Virus record (IMG/VR): IMGVR_UViG_3300030419_002835
Coordinates: 1 to 55,531 of that record
Reading direction: 5' to 3' (one strand)
DNA from: a virus
DNA length: 55,531 nt
The position numbers and the translations under genes were made by a program. The notes beneath the pieces are model-generated. The model worked only from the letters and a program-made list of their open reading frames with translations, did not search any database and was not told the DNA's origin. This document shows, one piece after another, positions 15-54,859 of the stretch. The number at the start of each line of letters is the position of its first letter. Positions within the stretch are counted from its first letter, which is position 1.

Positions 15-43
15 AAAGGAGGGCACAATTACCCTCCTTTTTT
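15..43. terminator. Rho-independent terminator, possibly bidirectional
   Basis: A perfect 9-bp stem (AAAGGAGGG / CCCTCCTTT) with an 8-nt loop runs into a T tract on the + strand; the A tract on the 5' side gives a T tract on the other strand too. It most likely ends a gene lying to the left of the window, or insulates the late block. Confidence 0.8.
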
Positions 44-48
44 AGTAG

Positions 49-205
49 TTTTCCACAGAATTATGCTAAAAAGTATTAAAAAAGCCCTTTTTAAATGGCT
101 ATCAGTTGTTTATAACGTTTTCCACAATACTGTTGAAAAGGTGTTAATTAGTGTGGAAATATGCTCATTAAGTGTGGAAAACTATGTGTAATCAGTTGTG
201 GAAAA
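49..205. promoter_or_regulatory. Cluster of cyanobacterial-type DnaA boxes (candidate origin or DnaA-binding region)
   Basis: Four perfect copies of TTTTCCACA lie within 157 bp: 49-57 and 118-126 on the + strand, 173-181 and 197-205 on the - strand. A one-mismatch copy is at 152-160 (ATTTCCACA on the - strand) and another at 131-139 (TTTTCAACA on the - strand). TTTTCCACA is the DnaA-box consensus of cyanobacterial chromosomes (established knowledge). The DNA between the first two boxes (about 60-115) is very AT-rich, like an unwinding element. Outside the cluster I noticed only imperfect matches, e.g. near 18399 inside gp7. The function as phage origin, host-DnaA titration site or regulator is inference. 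Confidence 0.6.
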
Positions 206-260
206 CTTGTTACATAGTAGACTTATTAGCCCTCTTAAATGTGCTCAGATGTTGTTATCT

Positions 261-290
261 AAGCGAGCGTAGTATAACACGAAGCGAGCG
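261..290 (+). repeat. Direct repeat AAGCGAGCG, two copies
   Basis: The GC-rich 9-mer AAGCGAGCG occurs at 261-269 and 282-290, exactly 21 bp (two helical turns) apart, in otherwise AT-rich DNA. The phased spacing suggests two protein-binding sites on one helix face (inference). The second copy lies inside the loop of the neighbouring nested inverted repeat. Confidence 0.6.
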
Positions 291-408: not shown

Positions 409-437
409 TTGACAACAACTCTCAGGTATTCTATGAT
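409..437 (+). promoter_or_regulatory. Sigma-70 type promoter (TTGACA-17-TATGAT)
   Basis: TTGACA at 409-414, a 17-nt spacer and TATGAT at 432-437 match the housekeeping sigma-factor consensus with one mismatch. The start would be near 444, about 25 nt before the ATG at 469, leaving room for the GGAGGT ribosome binding site. Confidence 0.7.
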
Positions 438-468: not shown

Positions 469-645
469 ATGGCCGTTTCTTACTATAACCGTACAGATAA
501 TAAGTATAGAATAACCCTGGAATTATCAGTCGAAGATGACTTTAATCCAAGGCAAATTGATTGGCGTAAAGTATTAGATTTGCACCCTAATGAGGTAGTG
601 CAATGTTATACTGAAGATCTGAGTAATCCTGTCAGTGATTATTAA
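469..645 (+). CDS. Small conserved-type cyanophage protein, function unknown (58 aa)
   Basis: A 58-codon gene with a strong ribosome binding site (GGAGGT, 6 nt before ATG) and tandem promoters upstream. The product is acidic at its C-terminus and has an alternating polar/hydrophobic N-terminal half (YRITLELSVEDD) followed by FNPRQIDWRKVLDL, which reads as a beta strand pair plus helix. From memory, similar short proteins with the pattern DDFNP-x-Q-I-x-W occur in other cyanophages, always without known function. No membrane segment or catalytic motif is visible. The good start signals make it a real gene; the role is unknown, and the host-type promoter suggests early expression. Confidence 0.75.
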   Translation: MAVSYYNRTDNKYRITLELSVEDDFNPRQIDWRKVLDLHPNEVVQCYTEDLSNPVSDY

Positions 646-1431: not shown

Positions 1432-2235
1432 ATGGCAAAAGGATTTACTGTAAAAACTGTTGCACCTAAGAAGAAAGAACCTGATTGGGATATAGATGCA
1501 ATTAAAGCAAGAATGAAAGGAAAGAGTATAGTCTTTTGCCTACCTGGTAGAGGATGCTCTTTTATCTTTTTAAAGAATTTTGTACAATTATGTTTTGATA
1601 TTGTACAAAACGGAATGAGTATTCAGATAAGTCAAGACTACTCATCAATGGTTAACTTTGCAAGATGTAAGTGTTTAGGTGCTAATGTATTACGTGGGCC
1701 TAAGCAAGTACCTTGGGATGGTAAACTTAAGTATGATTATCAACTATGGATTGACTCGGATATTGTCTTTGATACACAGAAGTTCTGGCAGTTATGTGAT
1801 CTTGCGTATCCTGCAGAAGCAATTAAAGAAGATGGTACAACCGATGAAGAACTATTAAAGAGTCATGCAATTGCTGCAGGTTGGTATGCCACTGAAGATG
1901 GACGCACAACCTCTGTAGCACACTGGTTAGAAGAAGATGATTTCCGCAAGAATGGTGGAGTTATGAATCATGAAACTGTGGAATCCATTTCTAAGCGTAA
2001 GAAACCCTTTACTGTTGATTATACAGGGTTTGGTTGGGTAATGATTAAGAACGGTGTCTTTGAAAATATGGAATATCCTTGGTTTGCTCCTAAGATGCAA
2101 ATCTTTGAGTCTGGTAATGTACAAGATATGTGTGGAGAAGACGTTAGTTTCTGTTTAGATGCAAAGGATATGGGACATGAGATCTGGTGCGACCCTCGGA
2201 TCAGAGTAGGCCACGAAAAAACTCGCGTTATTTAA
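1432..2235 (+). CDS. GT-A-like glycosyltransferase
   Basis: A 267-residue protein with the hallmarks of a nucleotide-sugar glycosyltransferase of GT-A fold: a buried strand after the basic N-terminus (SIVFCLPGR, about residue 31-40), a long helix, then the strand-plus-DxD motif WIDSDIVF with D108-S-D110 as likely metal and sugar-nucleotide ligands, and a C-terminal GEDVSFCLDAKD followed by DPRIRVGHEK, which resembles the acidic base plus conserved GH of such enzymes. Substrate is unknown; virion proteins, lipopolysaccharide or modified DNA are all possible. It stands alone behind a perfect host-type promoter rather than in a late operon, so early expression is likely. The fold is inferred from motifs only. 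Confidence 0.65.
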   Translation: MAKGFTVKTVAPKKKEPDWDIDAIKARMKGKSIVFCLPGRGCSFIFLKNFVQLCFDIVQNGMSIQISQDYSSMVNFARCKCLGANVLRGPKQVPWDGKLKYDYQLWIDSDIVFDTQKFWQLCDLAYPAEAIKEDGTTDEELLKSHAIAAGWYATEDGRTTSVAHWLEEDDFRKNGGVMNHETVESISKRKKPFTVDYTGFGWVMIKNGVFENMEYPWFAPKMQIFESGNVQDMCGEDVSFCLDAKDMGHEIWCDPRIRVGHEKTRVI

Positions 2236-2688: not shown

Positions 2689-3117
2689 ATGCCTGTACAG
2701 CGAGTCAGTAAATCATTTAAAGATATTAGCGCCTCTTTTAAGGTTAATCCGATTACGGATGATCTTATTGCGCTAAAAGATGAGAATGCCATTGCTCGTT
2801 CGGTGATGAACCTTGTATTTACAAATAAAGGTGAAAGAATGTTTCAGAATGATATAGGTTCACAAGTACAAAGTATACTTTTTGAAAATCTTAATGATAT
2901 TACTGCCGATTCCGTTAAGGATGAAATTGAAAATGTCATTCAAAACTATGAACCTAGAGTGAATTTAATAGATGTTGAGGTTTTAAACTCTGAAAAGTTC
3001 AATGATCTTGCATTTAAAGCTGATCGACATGAACTCAACGTCAAGATTACATATGAAATTGTTGGAATTAATGCCCAACCACAACAGTTATCATTCGCCT
3101 TAGAGCCCACACGATAA
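2689..3117 (+). CDS. 25: gp25 baseplate wedge subunit
   Basis: 142 residues, close to T4 gp25 (132). It shows the GPW/gp25 family pattern: a segment setting out the first and last constraints (AIARSVMNLVFTNKGERMFQNDIGSQVQSILFENL, residues about 36-70) followed by IENVIQNYEPRVNLIDVEV (about 84-102), and the EPR signature that holds the sheath initiator core. In T4, gp25 with gp6 and gp53 forms the inner wedge and nucleates sheath assembly. Its stop and the gp6 start overlap as TAATG, implying translational coupling. In T4 this gene lies beside uvsY; here it has moved to the front of the gp6-gp7-gp8 block, as is usual in cyanophages. Confidence 0.95.
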   Translation: MPVQRVSKSFKDISASFKVNPITDDLIALKDENAIARSVMNLVFTNKGERMFQNDIGSQVQSILFENLNDITADSVKDEIENVIQNYEPRVNLIDVEVLNSEKFNDLAFKADRHELNVKITYEIVGINAQPQQLSFALEPTR

Positions 3118-5114
3118 TGCCACTAGTAAATTTCGCCAATCTGGATTTCGATCAGATAAAAACTTCTATTAAGGATTATCTTCGATCTAATTCGAATTTC
3201 ACTGACTATGATTTCGAAGGATCTAACCTATCCAGTATTGTAGATGTACTTGCGTATAACACGTATATTACTTCATACAATGCTAATATGGTATCTAATG
3301 AAGTTTTTATTGATAGTGCCACACTTAGAGAGAATGTTGTTTCTTTAGCACGAAACATTGGATATACTCCAATGTCAAGAAAATCTTCTCGTGCACTAAT
3401 TTCCTTTAGTATTGATACATCGGGTTATGCTACACAACCGGAAACCATTACTCTTAATAAAGGATTAGTTGCTACAAGTGCACGTTTTGGTAATACCAGT
3501 TATATGTTTAGTATTTTAAATGATATAACGGTTCCTGTATTAGATAATAAAGCCTATTTTGATAATATTACCGTTTTTGAAGGAACTTATACTACAAATA
3601 ACTTTACTATTGACTCTTATACACCAAATCAGAGATTTATTCTTCCAAATACGGGTATTGATATATCAACAATTCGTGTTATTGTAAAACCAACAAAAAA
3701 TAGTTCAGTTAAAACGACATATACAAAGGCAGACAGTCTTTTTGACGTTACATCTGACTCAACTGTGTTTTTTGTACAAGAAATTGAAGATGAAAGGCAT
3801 GAAATTATCTTTGGCGACGGTATTTTCGGCAAAAAACTAGATTCTCCCAATTATATTGAAGCATCTTACTTAATATCGAGTGGTGCTGAAGGAAATAATG
3901 TTCAAAAATTCGAATTTACAGGTAAATTAACCTCATCTAGAGAAGCTAGTGCTCTTACAGGTGGTATTTCTGTTATTACTACAAATGAACAGTCTTTTGC
4001 TGGTGCAGAAATTGAAAGTGTTGAATCTATTAAAAAATATGCAACGCGAATTTATGCTTCACAGAACAGAGCTGTAACTGCAAGAGATTATGAAACCATT
4101 GTACCGACTTTATATCCAGAAACTGAATCAGTTGCTGTTTTTGGTGGAGAAGAATTAGATCCTCCACAATTTGGTAAGGTTTACATTAGTGTTAAACCTG
4201 TGAATGGTGCATATCTCTCCAGTATGATTAAAGATAATATTAAGAGAGATATTAAACAGTATGCGGTTGCAGGAATAGTCCCTGAAATCATTGATTTAAA
4301 ATATCTTTATATTGAACCTGATATAAATGTATATTACAATACTAATTTAGCTAGATCAGCGAGTTCTATTACAAGTATTGTATCAACTAACGTTGAAAGA
4401 TATGCAGATTCTACAGAATTGAATAAATTTGGTGCAAGATTCAAATATAGTGAATTTTTACAGATAATTGATGAGAGTAATGCAGCGATTACATCCAATA
4501 TTACTACAATTGTGATGAGAAGGGATTTAAGAACTGTTTTAAATAGTTTTGCTGAGTATGAAATTTGTTTTGGTAATAGATTCCATGTTAAAAACCATGG
4601 ACATTCTCCAAAATATGGAGTTGGATACAATATTAAATCTTCCGGATTTACCGTAAGTGGAATTCCTGGTACTGTATATCTTGCTGATATGCCATATGGT
4701 GATTTACAAGAGGGAACTGTTAATTTAATAAGATTAAGTTCTCCAACTGATCCTATTATTGTCAAAAGAGATGTAGGTGAAATAGATTATATTAAAGGAG
4801 AGGTTAAACTTCATCCGATAAATATTACTTCAACAGTCCTTAATAAAGGGTTCCCTGTTATTGAAGTGTCAGCCGTTCCTTACTCTAATGACGTGATTGG
4901 ATTACAGGATCTTTATTTGCAACTAGATATTAATAACACAACCATTGCTTCCATTTCTGATCGGATATCTTCTGGTAATGATATTTCAGGATCAAATTAT
5001 ATTGTATCTTCAAGTTATGCAAACGGTGGATTGGTTCGTGGGACTCCCCAAATAGTTACATCAGGATCAACAGCATCCACAACACCTATATTAGCAACCA
5101 CTTCGTCCTATTAA
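3117..5114 (+). CDS. 6: gp6 baseplate wedge protein
   Basis: 665 residues, matching T4 gp6 (660). The N-terminus (FDQIKTSIKDYLRSNSNFTDYDFEGSN... then LSSIVDVLAYNTYI and the ARNIGYTPMS segment near residue 80) is the typical gp6/baseplate J-like start, and the middle contains the ENVVSLARNIG and ARDYETIVPTLYPE segments (about residue 320-335) that characterise this family. gp6 dimers form the continuous ring of the inner baseplate and drive the change from hexagon to star. It is coupled to gp25 by a 1-nt overlap and followed after 6 nt by gp7. The C-terminal 60 residues are Ser/Thr-rich low-complexity sequence. Confidence 0.93.
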   Translation: MPLVNFANLDFDQIKTSIKDYLRSNSNFTDYDFEGSNLSSIVDVLAYNTYITSYNANMVSNEVFIDSATLRENVVSLARNIGYTPMSRKSSRALISFSIDTSGYATQPETITLNKGLVATSARFGNTSYMFSILNDITVPVLDNKAYFDNITVFEGTYTTNNFTIDSYTPNQRFILPNTGIDISTIRVIVKPTKNSSVKTTYTKADSLFDVTSDSTVFFVQEIEDERHEIIFGDGIFGKKLDSPNYIEASYLISSGAEGNNVQKFEFTGKLTSSREASALTGGISVITTNEQSFAGAEIESVESIKKYATRIYASQNRAVTARDYETIVPTLYPETESVAVFGGEELDPPQFGKVYISVKPVNGAYLSSMIKDNIKRDIKQYAVAGIVPEIIDLKYLYIEPDINVYYNTNLARSASSITSIVSTNVERYADSTELNKFGARFKYSEFLQIIDESNAAITSNITTIVMRRDLRTVLNSFAEYEICFGNRFHVKNHGHSPKYGVGYNIKSSGFTVSGIPGTVYLADMPYGDLQEGTVNLIRLSSPTDPIIVKRDVGEIDYIKGEVKLHPINITSTVLNKGFPVIEVSAVPYSNDVIGLQDLYLQLDINNTTIASISDRISSGNDISGSNYIVSSSYANGGLVRGTPQIVTSGSTASTTPILATTSSY

Positions 5115-51084: not shown

Positions 51085-51639
51085 ATGGCATACGGGAATG
51101 CGTTTCAAAATCAGATAAAGAATAGAAATTTTCTATCACCTACAGGATTTAAATTCACTTTGAATAGAGCTCCTAAGGTTTCCTTTTTTGGAAATACTGC
51201 AAATATTCCTGCACTCACATTGGGTGTAGCGGAACAACCTACTTATCTGCGAGATCTTCCTACACCTGGAGATAAGATTATATTTGATGATTTTACAATC
51301 CGTTTCCTTGTTGATGAGGATCTTAAAAATTATCTAGAGCTTTCTAATTGGATTCGGGGATTAGGATATCCAGAAACTCTTCAAGAAATTAGAGATCTTC
51401 AAACAGGTAGTGATCAACCTGAAGATAGTGGAATGAATATCTTTTCAGATGCAACATTACAAGTTTTAACAAGTTCACAAGTCCCTAATTTTAAAGTTGT
51501 TTTTAATGATTTGTGGCCTTATACATTAAGTGCATTGGATTTTGATGCAACAAATACCGACATAGAATACTTTACAGCAGAGGCATCTTTCAAGTATACT
51601 ATGTTTAATATACAGGATTTAAAAGGCAATAACTTATGA
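51085..51639 (+). CDS. Tail-tube-family protein in the gp3 position
   Basis: 184 residues. The sequence (FLSPTGFKFTLNRAPKVSFFGNTANIPALTLGVAEQPTYLRDLPTPGDKIIFDDFTIRFLVDEDLKNYLELSNWIRGLGYPE) follows the fold pattern of the gp19/gp54 tube proteins: beta strands, NIPALTLG, PGDK and a hinged NWIRGLG segment. In cyanophage annotations the gene between gp23 and uvsY is often called gp3, tail completion protein; gp54, the tube initiator, is the alternative. The product is a virion tail protein in either case. Ribosome binding site AAGGAG, 13 nt before ATG. Its end overlaps uvsY by 4 nt. Confidence 0.75.
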   Translation: MAYGNAFQNQIKNRNFLSPTGFKFTLNRAPKVSFFGNTANIPALTLGVAEQPTYLRDLPTPGDKIIFDDFTIRFLVDEDLKNYLELSNWIRGLGYPETLQEIRDLQTGSDQPEDSGMNIFSDATLQVLTSSQVPNFKVVFNDLWPYTLSALDFDATNTDIEYFTAEASFKYTMFNIQDLKGNNL

Positions 51640-52073
51640 GCATTGATCTTGAAGCAATTCAAGAGATGTGGGAAAAAGATGCAAAGATAGACAGAGATAA
51701 TCTACACGAAGAATCATTGAACATCCCTTCTCTTCATGCGAAATATTTTGAATTATATAATACTGTATTTCTTCTAAGAAAGAAAGCAGAACAGCAAAGA
51801 AAGAATATCCGTCATGAACGGTATGAGTATTTTAGTGGGAAAGCAGATCCAGAAGTCTATGTAGAGAATCCCTTTGGAAAAAAGATTAGGGATAAAGATA
51901 CAATGACAAAATATCTTGATGCAGATGAAAAATTATCTAATTCTTCACTAAAAATTGACTATTATGATACAGTACTGGTATACTTGGAGAGTATATTAAA
52001 AGTAATTCAGAATAGAACTTATCAAATTAAGAATGCAATTGAATTTATGAGATTTCAATCTGGATTGGGATAG
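51636..52073 (+). CDS. uvsY: UvsY recombination mediator
   Basis: 145 residues (T4: 137). The pattern EAIQEMWEKDAKIDRDNLHEESLNIPSLHAKYFELYNTVFLLRKKAEQQRKNIRHERYEYFSGKADPEVY and YLESILKVIQNRTYQIKNAIEFMRFQSG fits T4 UvsY throughout, including the helical C-terminus with R-x-x-x-IK-x-x-x-x-[FM]. UvsY helps load UvsX recombinase on gp32-coated single strands, feeding recombination-dependent replication. It overlaps the gene before by 4 nt (ATGA) and the next by 1 nt (TAGTG), so its translation is linked to both. Confidence 0.93.
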   Translation: MSIDLEAIQEMWEKDAKIDRDNLHEESLNIPSLHAKYFELYNTVFLLRKKAEQQRKNIRHERYEYFSGKADPEVYVENPFGKKIRDKDTMTKYLDADEKLSNSSLKIDYYDTVLVYLESILKVIQNRTYQIKNAIEFMRFQSGLG

Positions 52074-52672
52074 TGGAAATTGTTAGACCATTTGCTCCTG
52101 TTTTAGGTGCGATGATTATTAAAGAAGATCATGAAAATGTATTGCATCAACTTATACATTATAGGAAAGCTAGTGGTTCAGTTTTAGTAAGTAGTGATAA
52201 AAGAATTCTTAAAAAATATTCCAAACTGGAGTTAATACTGATAAATAAATTTTATGAATTTATAAATGCTAGCAATCTTTTATATCCTAATGATTTTATA
52301 ATTACAACTTCTTGGGTTGTAAAAACTCCACCAAGACAAAAATCTGAATATCATTTTCATAAAAATTGTTTTTATAGTGGAATTTATTATTTTGAAGATC
52401 ATTATGAATCGGAATGCGGTAATTTATCCTTTCAAAATCCCCTACAAAAACTTACTGATTTTGAAATAACTCCAGAAACATTTAATGAGATAAATTGTCA
52501 GGAATGGGTTGTTTTTCCCAAACCCCATCAATTAGTATTTTTTCCCAGTTATCTTACACATAGAATTTTAGAGAATAAAAGTTACAAAGATAGATATTCT
52601 TTAGCCTTTAATATTGTTCCCACTGGCGAATATGGTTCAAATGATTCAACTTATAATACGGATTGGACATGA
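52073..52672 (+). CDS. 2OG-Fe(II) oxygenase-like protein 1
   Basis: 199 residues, GTG start sharing its G with the uvsY TAG stop. The pattern YHFHKNCFYSGIYYF (about 92-106) matches the H-x-H-x-[NS]-x-x-[SY]-G-[VI]-YY strand of small 2-oxoglutarate/Fe(II) oxygenases (TIGR02466-like), and VFFPSYLTHRILENKSYKDRYSLAFNIVPTG (about 162-192) supplies the distal His and the Arg expected to bind 2-oxoglutarate. Substrates of phage members are unknown; DNA, protein or small-molecule hydroxylation have all been proposed for the family. It forms a coupled pair with the next gene. Confidence 0.7.
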   Translation: MEIVRPFAPVLGAMIIKEDHENVLHQLIHYRKASGSVLVSSDKRILKKYSKLELILINKFYEFINASNLLYPNDFIITTSWVVKTPPRQKSEYHFHKNCFYSGIYYFEDHYESECGNLSFQNPLQKLTDFEITPETFNEINCQEWVVFPKPHQLVFFPSYLTHRILENKSYKDRYSLAFNIVPTGEYGSNDSTYNTDWT

Positions 52673-53367
52673 CTGATAAAATACCCAATAATATACCTCC
52701 AATAGATCCACAAGATAAGTCGGAGATTAAGGTAATTCGTCCTCAAAATTTGGGATGGTTAGAAGCTAAACTTCCTTCCGATGCTATGGAGAGATTGTGG
52801 CAATATATTGAAAAAGCAGAGGGTGATTATAGACATCATTTGGCTGGAAATCTTGGTAAAAGTTCAAAAATAAAAGATAAGGATAATTGGTTTAGGGATA
52901 ATGTTTTAGAAAAGTTATGTGAAGTTTATTTTAATGAGTTTAAGAATCCCATGGAATGGGATTTTGCTGGAAATGGCCATCATAACTATGTTTTAAATTC
53001 TTTTTGGGTAAATTTTCAAAATCAATATGAATTTAATCCTCTTCATAGACATTTAAGGGCATTTTATTCTTTTGTAGTATGGATGAAAATCCCTACAGAT
53101 TGGAGAGAACAGCATAAATTACCTTTTGTAGAAAAGTCAAATTTTCATACCGCATCTAATTTTGCTTTTGCTTATACAGATATTCTTGGTAATCTTACAG
53201 ATGAGCAATATCATCTTGATAAAAGTATGGAAGGAACCATTTTATTTTTTCCAGGAAAATTGCAACATCAAGTTTACCCATTTTTTAATTCAGATGAACA
53301 AAGAATTTCTATTTCGGGAAATATTTGTGCAGATACCTCTTATTGCTTGGGAGTAGATAAATACTGA
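52669..53367 (+). CDS. 2OG-Fe(II) oxygenase-like protein 2
   Basis: 232 residues from ATG 52669, which overlaps the previous stop by 4 nt (a TTG two codons earlier is also open). Key segments: NSFWVNFQNQYEFNPLHRHLRAFYSFVVWMKIP (about 104-136, with His-x-His) and GTILFFPGKLQHQVYPFFNSDEQRISISGNI (about 188-218, with distal His and Arg). These are the same elements as in the preceding gene but the sequence is otherwise quite different, so the pair is not a recent duplication. The reaction and substrate are unknown. Late-type box GATAAATA lies at its 3' end, before uvsW. Confidence 0.68.
   Translation: MTDKIPNNIPPIDPQDKSEIKVIRPQNLGWLEAKLPSDAMERLWQYIEKAEGDYRHHLAGNLGKSSKIKDKDNWFRDNVLEKLCEVYFNEFKNPMEWDFAGNGHHNYVLNSFWVNFQNQYEFNPLHRHLRAFYSFVVWMKIPTDWREQHKLPFVEKSNFHTASNFAFAYTDILGNLTDEQYHLDKSMEGTILFFPGKLQHQVYPFFNSDEQRISISGNICADTSYCLGVDKY
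53356..53363 (+). promoter_or_regulatory. Late promoter box GATAAATA before uvsW
   Basis: NATAAATA match inside the end of the second oxygenase gene, 20 nt before the uvsW GTG. T4 uvsW is a late gene, which fits. Confidence 0.45.
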
Positions 53368-53383
53368 TAGATGCATGGGATAG

Positions 53384-54859
53384 GTGATTGATACATCAGC
53401 TAATGTTGTTATATCTAAAGCAAACGAAGTATTTTTAAGAATTAACGCAGAACCTCATATTGAATATGAATTAAGGGATCATTTTACGTTTGAAGTTGAG
53501 GGTGCTAAGTTTATGCCTCAATATCGAAAACGTAATTGGAATGGTGAGATCCATTTATTCGATATGAGATCGAAACAAATTTATGTTGGTCTCTTAGATA
53601 GGATTATTGCTTTTTGCGAAAGAAACGATTATACCTATAAGTTTGAAGATAATAAGTATTATGGACTTCCCTTTGAAGTCAATGAAGGGATTTCATATGA
53701 AGGTGTTAAAGATTATATGCAATCTATTTGCCGTCATTCGCCTCGGAAGTATCAAATAGAGGGCGTATACGATGCATTAAGACATAATCGAAAGCTATTG
53801 ATAAGTCCCACTGCATCAGGCAAATCTCTGATGATTTATTCGTTAGTGAGATACTACACAGATAAGCACGAAAAAATACTTTTAGTTGTTCCCACGACAT
53901 CTTTGGTAGAGCAGATGTATAAGGACTTTTCCGATTATGGTTGGGATTGTGAGTCATATTGTCACCGTATATATTCTGGTAAAGAAAAGACAAATGAATA
54001 TCCAGTCACAATTACCACGTGGCAATCTGTATATAAACTTCCTCGTTCATTTTTTGAGGATTATAATGTAGTCATAGGAGATGAAGCACATCTCTTTAAG
54101 AGTAAGTCATTAATATCTATAATGACAAAATTGCATCATGCCAAATATCGATACGGTTTCACCGGAACACTTGATGGTACTCAGACACATAAATGGGTAT
54201 TGGAAGGATTGTTTGGACCTTCGTATAAGGTAACAAAGACTGATGAATTAATGAGGCAAGGACATTTGGCTCGATTGAATATTCAATGTTTAGTCCTTAA
54301 ACATTCTCCTCAAAAATTTGAAACTTATCAAGATGAAATTCAATATCTTATAGAGCATGAACAAAGAAATAACTTTATAAAAAATTTGACTTTGGATTTA
54401 AAGGGTAATACACTGGTATTATTCTCCAGAGTGGAAGCACATGGAGCAGTCTTATATGATTTAATAAATACAAATAAGACAAGTGATCATAAAGTATTCT
54501 TTGTCCATGGTGGTGTCGATACTGAACAAAGAGAATTAGTTAGAGAAATTACTGAAAAGGAGGAAAATGCAATCATTGTTGCGTCCTATGGCACTTTCAG
54601 TACTGGTATTAACATTAAGCGGTTGCACAACATCATCTTTGCTTCTCCCTCTAAATCAAGGGTTAGAAATCTACAAAGTATTGGTAGAGTTCTTCGAAAA
54701 GGAGCAGATAAAATAAAAGCAATTCTTTATGATGTTGCCGACGACTGTACCCATAACTCTAAAAGGAATTATACTTTAAATCACTTTATTGAAAGAATTA
54801 AAATCTATAATGAAGAAAATTTTAATTATGAAATAATCTCAATACAATTAAGGAAATAA
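53384..54859 (+). CDS. uvsW: UvsW RNA-DNA and DNA helicase
   Basis: 491 residues, GTG start (an in-frame TAG just before it excludes a longer form). The N-terminal domain (ELRDHFTFEVEGAKFMPQYRKRNWNGEIHLFD) is the UvsW-specific DNA-binding part. SF2 motifs: PRKYQIEGV (Q-like, about 120), SPTASGKS (Walker A, 141-148), GDEAH (about 232-236), GFTGTLDG (motif III region, about 258-265), QSIGRVLRKGADK (motif VI, about 430). UvsW unwinds R-loops and branched DNA and marks the switch from origin-dependent to recombination-dependent replication. It is followed after 3 nt by the next gene. Confidence 0.95.
   Translation: MIDTSANVVISKANEVFLRINAEPHIEYELRDHFTFEVEGAKFMPQYRKRNWNGEIHLFDMRSKQIYVGLLDRIIAFCERNDYTYKFEDNKYYGLPFEVNEGISYEGVKDYMQSICRHSPRKYQIEGVYDALRHNRKLLISPTASGKSLMIYSLVRYYTDKHEKILLVVPTTSLVEQMYKDFSDYGWDCESYCHRIYSGKEKTNEYPVTITTWQSVYKLPRSFFEDYNVVIGDEAHLFKSKSLISIMTKLHHAKYRYGFTGTLDGTQTHKWVLEGLFGPSYKVTKTDELMRQGHLARLNIQCLVLKHSPQKFETYQDEIQYLIEHEQRNNFIKNLTLDLKGNTLVLFSRVEAHGAVLYDLINTNKTSDHKVFFVHGGVDTEQRELVREITEKEENAIIVASYGTFSTGINIKRLHNIIFASPSKSRVRNLQSIGRVLRKGADKIKAILYDVADDCTHNSKRNYTLNHFIERIKIYNEENFNYEIISIQLRK

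Follow-up and report, generated by a model that had tools for sequence, protein, structure and literature searches.

Does a T4-like cyanophage carry the DnaA boxes of its hosts, and what could such boxes do there? The question is raised by the left end of a 55,531-bp IMG/VR virus record, which was analysed whole and is here called the window. The record is a fragment of a T4-like cyanophage with g25, g6, uvsY, uvsW, and structural genes. A preliminary description pointed to a cluster of cyanobacterial DnaA boxes and proposed that it could be an origin that recruits host DnaA, a decoy for DnaA, or a site where DnaA acts as a regulator.

The box cluster and its surroundings

The preliminary description counted four exact copies of TTTTCCACA and two copies with one mismatch at 49-205, in both orientations. 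A motif scan identified the same six boxes.

49-57, + strand: DnaA box 1, exact TTTTCCACA
118-126, + strand: DnaA box 2, exact TTTTCCACA
131-139, - strand: DnaA box 3, one mismatch, TTTTCAACA, 13 bp from box 2
152-160, - strand: DnaA box 4, one mismatch, ATTTCCACA, 21 bp from box 3
173-181, - strand: DnaA box 5, exact TTTTCCACA, 21 bp from box 4
197-205, - strand: DnaA box 6, exact TTTTCCACA, 24 bp from box 5

These four exact copies are the only ones in the 55,531-bp record, as had been noticed. The AT-rich DNA that separates box 1 from box 2 is real, and so is the palindromic layout of the boxes. Copies with at most one mismatch are not enriched over the whole window (26 found, 24.8 expected), so the signal is the exact cluster. 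Windows simulated with a first-order Markov model (n = 300) held a mean of 1.1 exact copies, and the largest simulated cluster within 157 bp had two exact copies, once in 300, versus the four observed. A chance origin of the box cluster is excluded. The convergent 13-bp offset of boxes 2 and 3 was found again in relatives, while the window's box pair as an exact sequence had no match in IMG/VR.

TTTTCCACA had been taken for the DnaA box of cyanobacterial origins. In Cyanobiaceae genomes, TTTTCCACA-like boxes (at most one mismatch) are 75-fold denser in the non-coding DNA upstream of dnaN, and exact TTTTCCACA is 205-fold enriched at the dnaN-side oriC versus the rest of the locus. Gel shifts in Cyanothece and Anabaena also identify it as the cyanobacterial DnaA box (PMC4674748), and in Prochlorococcus, DnaA boxes next to dnaN served to validate the origins (PMC2836286). 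The enrichment at host oriC and the published gel shifts support the assignment and indicate that the phage carries its hosts' own box. Judging from the sequence, host DnaA likely binds to the phage boxes.

From left to right, the site consists of a terminator-like hairpin, the box array with its AT-rich segment, a conserved element (E), a sigma-70 promoter, and a gene for a 58-aa protein. The features around the boxes are as follows.

15..43, + strand: terminator-like hairpin with a T tail, AAAGGAGGG-CACAATTA-CCCTCCTTT TTT, read from the sequence
58..117, + strand: AT-rich segment between boxes 1 and 2, candidate unwinding element
236..281, + strand: conserved element E, consensus TTaAATGTgnnnaggtgTTGTnaTCTTaGCncGCatncTAtCAnangTCaAC, nhmmer profile match E=1e-8, the window being one of the seven seed sequences of the profile
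409..437, + strand: sigma-70-type promoter TTGACA-N17-TATGAT, score 11/12
469..645, + strand: 58-aa acidic protein, phrog_12516, first gene past the promoter
1432..2235, + strand: 267-aa phrog_1574 protein, syntenic anchor
2689-3117, + strand: g25, start of the baseplate genes
3117-5114, + strand: g6, baseplate gene; g25-g6 is a positional landmark common with T4 oriE

Two adjacent 2OG-Fe(II) oxygenase genes were also seen at the other end of the window (52073-53367), between uvsY (51636-52073) and uvsW (53384-54859).

A hairpin scan puts the stem at 15-40, on the - strand, and similar hairpins lie ahead of the site in relatives. Such a terminator-like hairpin would shield the site from upstream transcription, and this insulation is also origin-like. 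The AT-rich segment resembles S-SM2 (GATTATGC...TATTAAAAAAG...TTTTTAAATG...GTTGTTTATA.CGTT), and of the 97 loci found independently, 54 have TATTAAAAA in the 300 bp ahead of E. Across loci, the AT content at -160 to -20 relative to E is 0.67-0.70 versus a mean of 0.63, which is a modest effect. The weakest duplex is at about -130 to -150 relative to E, that is, at the boxes, and E with the next 40 bp is GC-richer than the box zone.

Adjacent boxes are spaced 13, 23-24, or 34-35 bp apart when convergent and 12 or 21-22 bp apart when tandem. Helical phasing at 10.5 bp gave resultants of 0.92 and 0.81 among loci that are partly related and were in part picked for a convergent pair within 30 bp; this is compatible with cooperative binding. 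With steps close to one helical turn, such a ladder points to proteins bound side by side more than to hairpins. A hairpin or terminator reading of the palindromic boxes was rejected, as convergent, divergent, and tandem pairs all occur. When the site was inspected by eye for DnaA-trios, the box-plus-trio layout was not seen; TAGTAGACTTATTAG is located just to the right of box 6, which for the boxes next to it is the wrong side.

The same variety of pair types, in which hairpins are not a common feature, speaks against functions that do not involve DnaA at all, for example in packaging, in recombination, or as an RNA structure. RNAalifold found no consensus structure for E and Rfam gave no credible match. 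An RNA gene was rejected on these grounds and is also disfavoured by the position of the site, which has a terminator on one side and a promoter on the other. IMG/VR contigs frequently end in this region, which counts for a role without DnaA, but a role of this kind is hardly probable at all.

Conservation of the site in relatives

Relatives from IMG/VR (n = 80) were fetched through the phrog_1574 gene at 1432-2235, blind to boxes. Among the 67 with sequence ahead of this gene, all exact boxes are upstream of it and none are downstream. The gene is annotated as glycosyltransferase-like in some records. It follows E at a median of 1.2 kb and is never on the wrong strand. In six isolates and in a 182-kb IMG/VR genome (G019), the best box cluster of the whole genome is found in the same small-gene region.

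S-SM2: 58,064/58,085
P-TIM68: 58,194/58,208
S-PM2: 19,231/19,244/19,256
Syn9: 52,565/52,589
S-SM1: 48,835/48,866
Syn19: 50,629/50,660
G019: 45,973/45,996 and 46,602/46,623, with g25 downstream

The clusters of the six isolates are 1.6-7.7 kb upstream of g25-g6-g7. Conservation of position, which had been put forward as a check on the cluster, is thus seen both among the phrog_1574 relatives and in the whole-genome searches of isolates. Equal clusters elsewhere would have spoken against it; no second box cluster was found in the window or by whole-genome scans of the complete genomes of cluster-bearing relatives. An exact box pair of this kind is absent from SynMITS9220M01, Bellamy, P-SSM2, P-SSM4, and several others. 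When all of IMG/VR was scanned for two exact boxes in convergent orientation, at least 120 contigs came up, many with phrog_1574, g25, or g6 downstream.

Other observations were made during these searches. An TTTTCCACA...TGTGGAAAA pair with an identical 36-bp span is present in L147, L149, L162, L165, L180, L189, L201, and L203. These contigs are mostly GC-rich (G+C 0.45-0.60) and viral, without cyanophage landmarks. The pair perhaps marks a further conserved site with DnaA boxes, in another group of viruses. In S-PM2 (NC_006820.1, 17,000-20,000; L225), several tRNAs are annotated, and two of these annotations run over the box cluster and E. ARAGORN found no tRNA in this stretch, and the annotation coordinates look misplaced. 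In many IMG/VR contigs of the group, one end falls near the site, no more than about 3 kb upstream of phrog_1574, and the window itself starts 49 bp from the first box. These ends are probably assembly breaks at variable DNA.

Element E is about 52 bp long and is located downstream of the boxes, with a single match in each complete genome that has it. It is previously undescribed in the literature searched. In 34 loci and isolates that were not selected for boxes, and with the window excluded, 34 exact boxes were found in the 10.1 kb made up of up to 350 bp upstream of E, versus 17 in 1,325 kb elsewhere, a 262-fold enrichment. One-mismatch boxes are enriched 5.4-fold upstream of E in the same set. 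An independent set of 97 unique loci was found by E patterns only. These loci are mutually related, so that counts are not independent events: exact TTTTCCACA is present in the last 300 bp ahead of E in 40 of the 97, and in 30 it occurs two or more times there, versus none of the 2,117 windows used as controls. Among repeated 9-mers upstream of E in these loci, TTTTCCACA ranks first, and it emerged without being supplied. The sequence itself shows the boxes and how exact they are, their conserved place next to E, and the promoter and AT-rich flank.

E was not found in P-SSM4, P-HM1, or most of the P-SSM2 genome, nor in the g25-upstream stretches tested of S-SSM7, ACG-2014f, S-CAM7, S-T4, and S-B05. 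As judged by these searches, it is absent or unrecognisable in more distant cyanophages. It is also absent from host oriC loci. The left half of E (TTAAATGTGCTCAGG.CTTGTGATC) is repeated 33-68 bp apart in L443, L543, L549, and L553.

A GC-skew switch at the cluster, which had been suggested as a further sign of an origin, did not appear. In the complete genomes tested, there is no switch at the site and the detrended minima and maxima fall elsewhere, and GC skew was rejected as origin evidence. Such a switch is usual at bacterial chromosomal origins but is not strictly defining. T4 oriA and oriC are also without one (PMC3016281); therefore, a missing switch does not exclude a phage origin.

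Other boxes, no boxes, and what they imply

Exact TTTTCCACA is missing from 57 of the 97 E loci (about 60%). TTCTCAA/TTGAGAA boxes take its place in 24 of these 57, and at least two copies are present in 20 of the 24. Loci with such boxes within 230 bp upstream of E include L059, L042, L082, L038, L430, L434, and L446, among others. Yet other repeats are found upstream of E in L427, L018, L499, and L471 (tandem TGTAACACA; CCTTAAAGAATG; TATCTGTGG), and from their sequences, the type of repeat seems to differ from phage to phage.

TTTTCCACA and TTCTCAA occupy the same place and never occur together (0/97, Fisher p=3e-7). The box class also does not follow the host strain, since on the same strain, WH8109, Syn19 is with boxes and Bellamy and S-SSM7 are without. 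Both points would fit a phage-encoded initiator or another phage protein that binds the boxes, with the two sequences as two specificities of one system. However, the exact match to the hosts' own 9-mer would then be a coincidence. No initiator gene that tracks the box class was found among the genes within 1 kb, and the first gene is of the same family in all classes, which makes a phage-encoded binder rather improbable. That family, phrog_12516, was found at a distance of 165-233 bp past E in 88 of 136 loci, and every box class is represented among them. For the 58-aa gene, autoregulation was rejected, as the same family is present in TTTTCCACA, TTCTCAA, and no-box loci.

The main rival to an origin is DnaA-controlled transcription, in which the boxes and E would control the adjacent early promoter and small genes and there would be no origin. 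Early transcription of the phage would in this way depend on host DnaA. A strong promoter (at least 10/12) is present downstream of E in 82.5% of E loci versus 11% of control stretches. Boxes are located at +100 to +250 beyond E in some relatives, and the first gene is usually of the same family whatever the boxes. In L154 and L196, the best promoter-like site after E has TTTTCCACA in its spacer, between -35 and -10, where it would let DnaA block the promoter. Most boxes, however, are 110-350 bp upstream of the promoter and on the far side of E. There are up to 5-8 boxes per site, which is above what is usual for one regulated promoter, and the AT-rich DNA of low stability is at the boxes, not at the promoter. 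A purely regulatory site is thus unlikely, though it deserves to be kept in view.

A decoy that titrates host DnaA and stops host replication would profit from exact, presumably high-affinity sites in DNA that multiplies in the cell. It would need neither a conserved element and promoter nor helical spacing, but the sites, only 2-7 in number, are always beside the former and show the latter. Many relatives also do without the boxes. A decoy therefore appears very unlikely.

On the phrog_1574 protein tree, the TTTTCCACA class needs at least 27 changes, 11 of them forced by well-supported branches. With so many changes, boxes have often been gained, lost, or exchanged, or the site recombines away from the gene. 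The loci without boxes, the switches of class, the mismatch with hosts, the missing skew switch, and the lack of E in distant phages together suggest that DnaA use may be one of several options at a conserved site.

A candidate origin and its known counterparts

The site is best explained as an early replication origin of T4-like cyanophages, of the iteron type, that recruits host DnaA (probability about 0.57). Of the three roles first proposed, the origin fits best, as a prediction, because there is a single site with AT-rich DNA, a conserved E, a promoter, and the neighbourhood of T4 oriE; the decoy is disfavoured. The cluster of host-type boxes, spaced in multiples of roughly one turn of the helix, would gather host DnaA, as can be expected because the boxes are the hosts' own sequence. 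The boxes adjoin AT-rich DNA that would be bounded by the upstream terminator and by E downstream. The strands would be separated by DnaA binding with the help of transcription that starts at the neighbouring early sigma-70 promoter. The first forks could then be started by the phage's own helicase and primase or from an R-loop primer, after which recombination-dependent replication would take over. We infer DnaA binding in vivo and strand opening, and origin activity at the site, from the sequence features. T4-like cyanophages with this site thus probably borrow the host's start protein for DNA copying.

A wider reading is more tentative, with somewhat less than an even chance. There may be one modular origin at the T4 oriE position, made of a terminator, AT-rich segment, box array, E, and early promoter, in which the initiator boxes were swapped repeatedly. 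Its commonest module would recruit host DnaA, so that lytic phages would start with the host initiator.

The site is real, conserved, and undescribed in the literature searched. Literature searches for cyanophage DnaA boxes found nothing relevant, in agreement with the first impression that no DnaA-dependent origin has been described in T4-like cyanophages. A review of T4 initiation never mentions DnaA (PMC3016281). T4-like cyanophages are among the most abundant marine viruses, and the only published statement on a start site that was found is the single theta origin predicted for Syn9, as given in a cyanophage review (PMC2984593). Use of a host initiator is not known for T4-type phages. The site is conserved and can be mapped in cultured Syn9, S-PM2, S-SM2, and Syn19, so the question of where replication starts is directly testable. 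If the origin is confirmed, phage replication would be tied to the host's own initiation control, and the site would exemplify an origin that keeps its frame but exchanges its initiator boxes.

The phage site and cyanobacterial oriC have the same TTTTCCACA 9-mer, mixed-orientation clusters, and a non-coding stretch. They differ in convergent spacing, which is 20-21 in hosts versus 13, 23-24, or 34-35 in phages. Unlike oriC, the phage site has no dnaN or dnaA neighbour and has element E, and its boxes are more often exact than host boxes. In pSC101 and phage P1 oriR, host DnaA boxes and AT-rich DNA are present at an extrachromosomal origin, as here. Those origins also carry iterons for an element-encoded Rep protein; we know of no such iterons at the cyanophage site. 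The cyanophages also differ in being lytic and T4-like, with their own replisome.

T4 oriF, or ori(uvsY), is also beside g25 and has a promoter and an AT-rich unwinding element, with R-loop priming. It differs in its location on the 3' side of g25, in its MotA middle promoter, and in that no DnaA boxes are reported. Homology with oriF was considered and rejected, as oriF adjoins g25 on the other side.

The annotated oriE of T4 is at 79,355, in gene 5, 1.7 kb upstream of g6, and is followed by 5.4 (PAAR), 6, and 7. The cyanophage site is likewise upstream of 25-6-7, and in S-SM1 it is also upstream of a PAAR gene. The repeats of oriE recall plasmid iterons and are kept in syntenic regions of close relatives, and oriE depends on an early promoter (PMC3016281, Kreuzer and Brister). 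A putative sigma-70 promoter is also near the cyanophage site. The T4 repeats, in contrast, are gene 5 coding sequence with a 24-nt period, and no DnaA box was found in the T4 oriE stretch. The T4 genes repEA and repEB, in turn, were not seen at the cyanophage site. Thus, position and logic agree between the two, while the parts differ.
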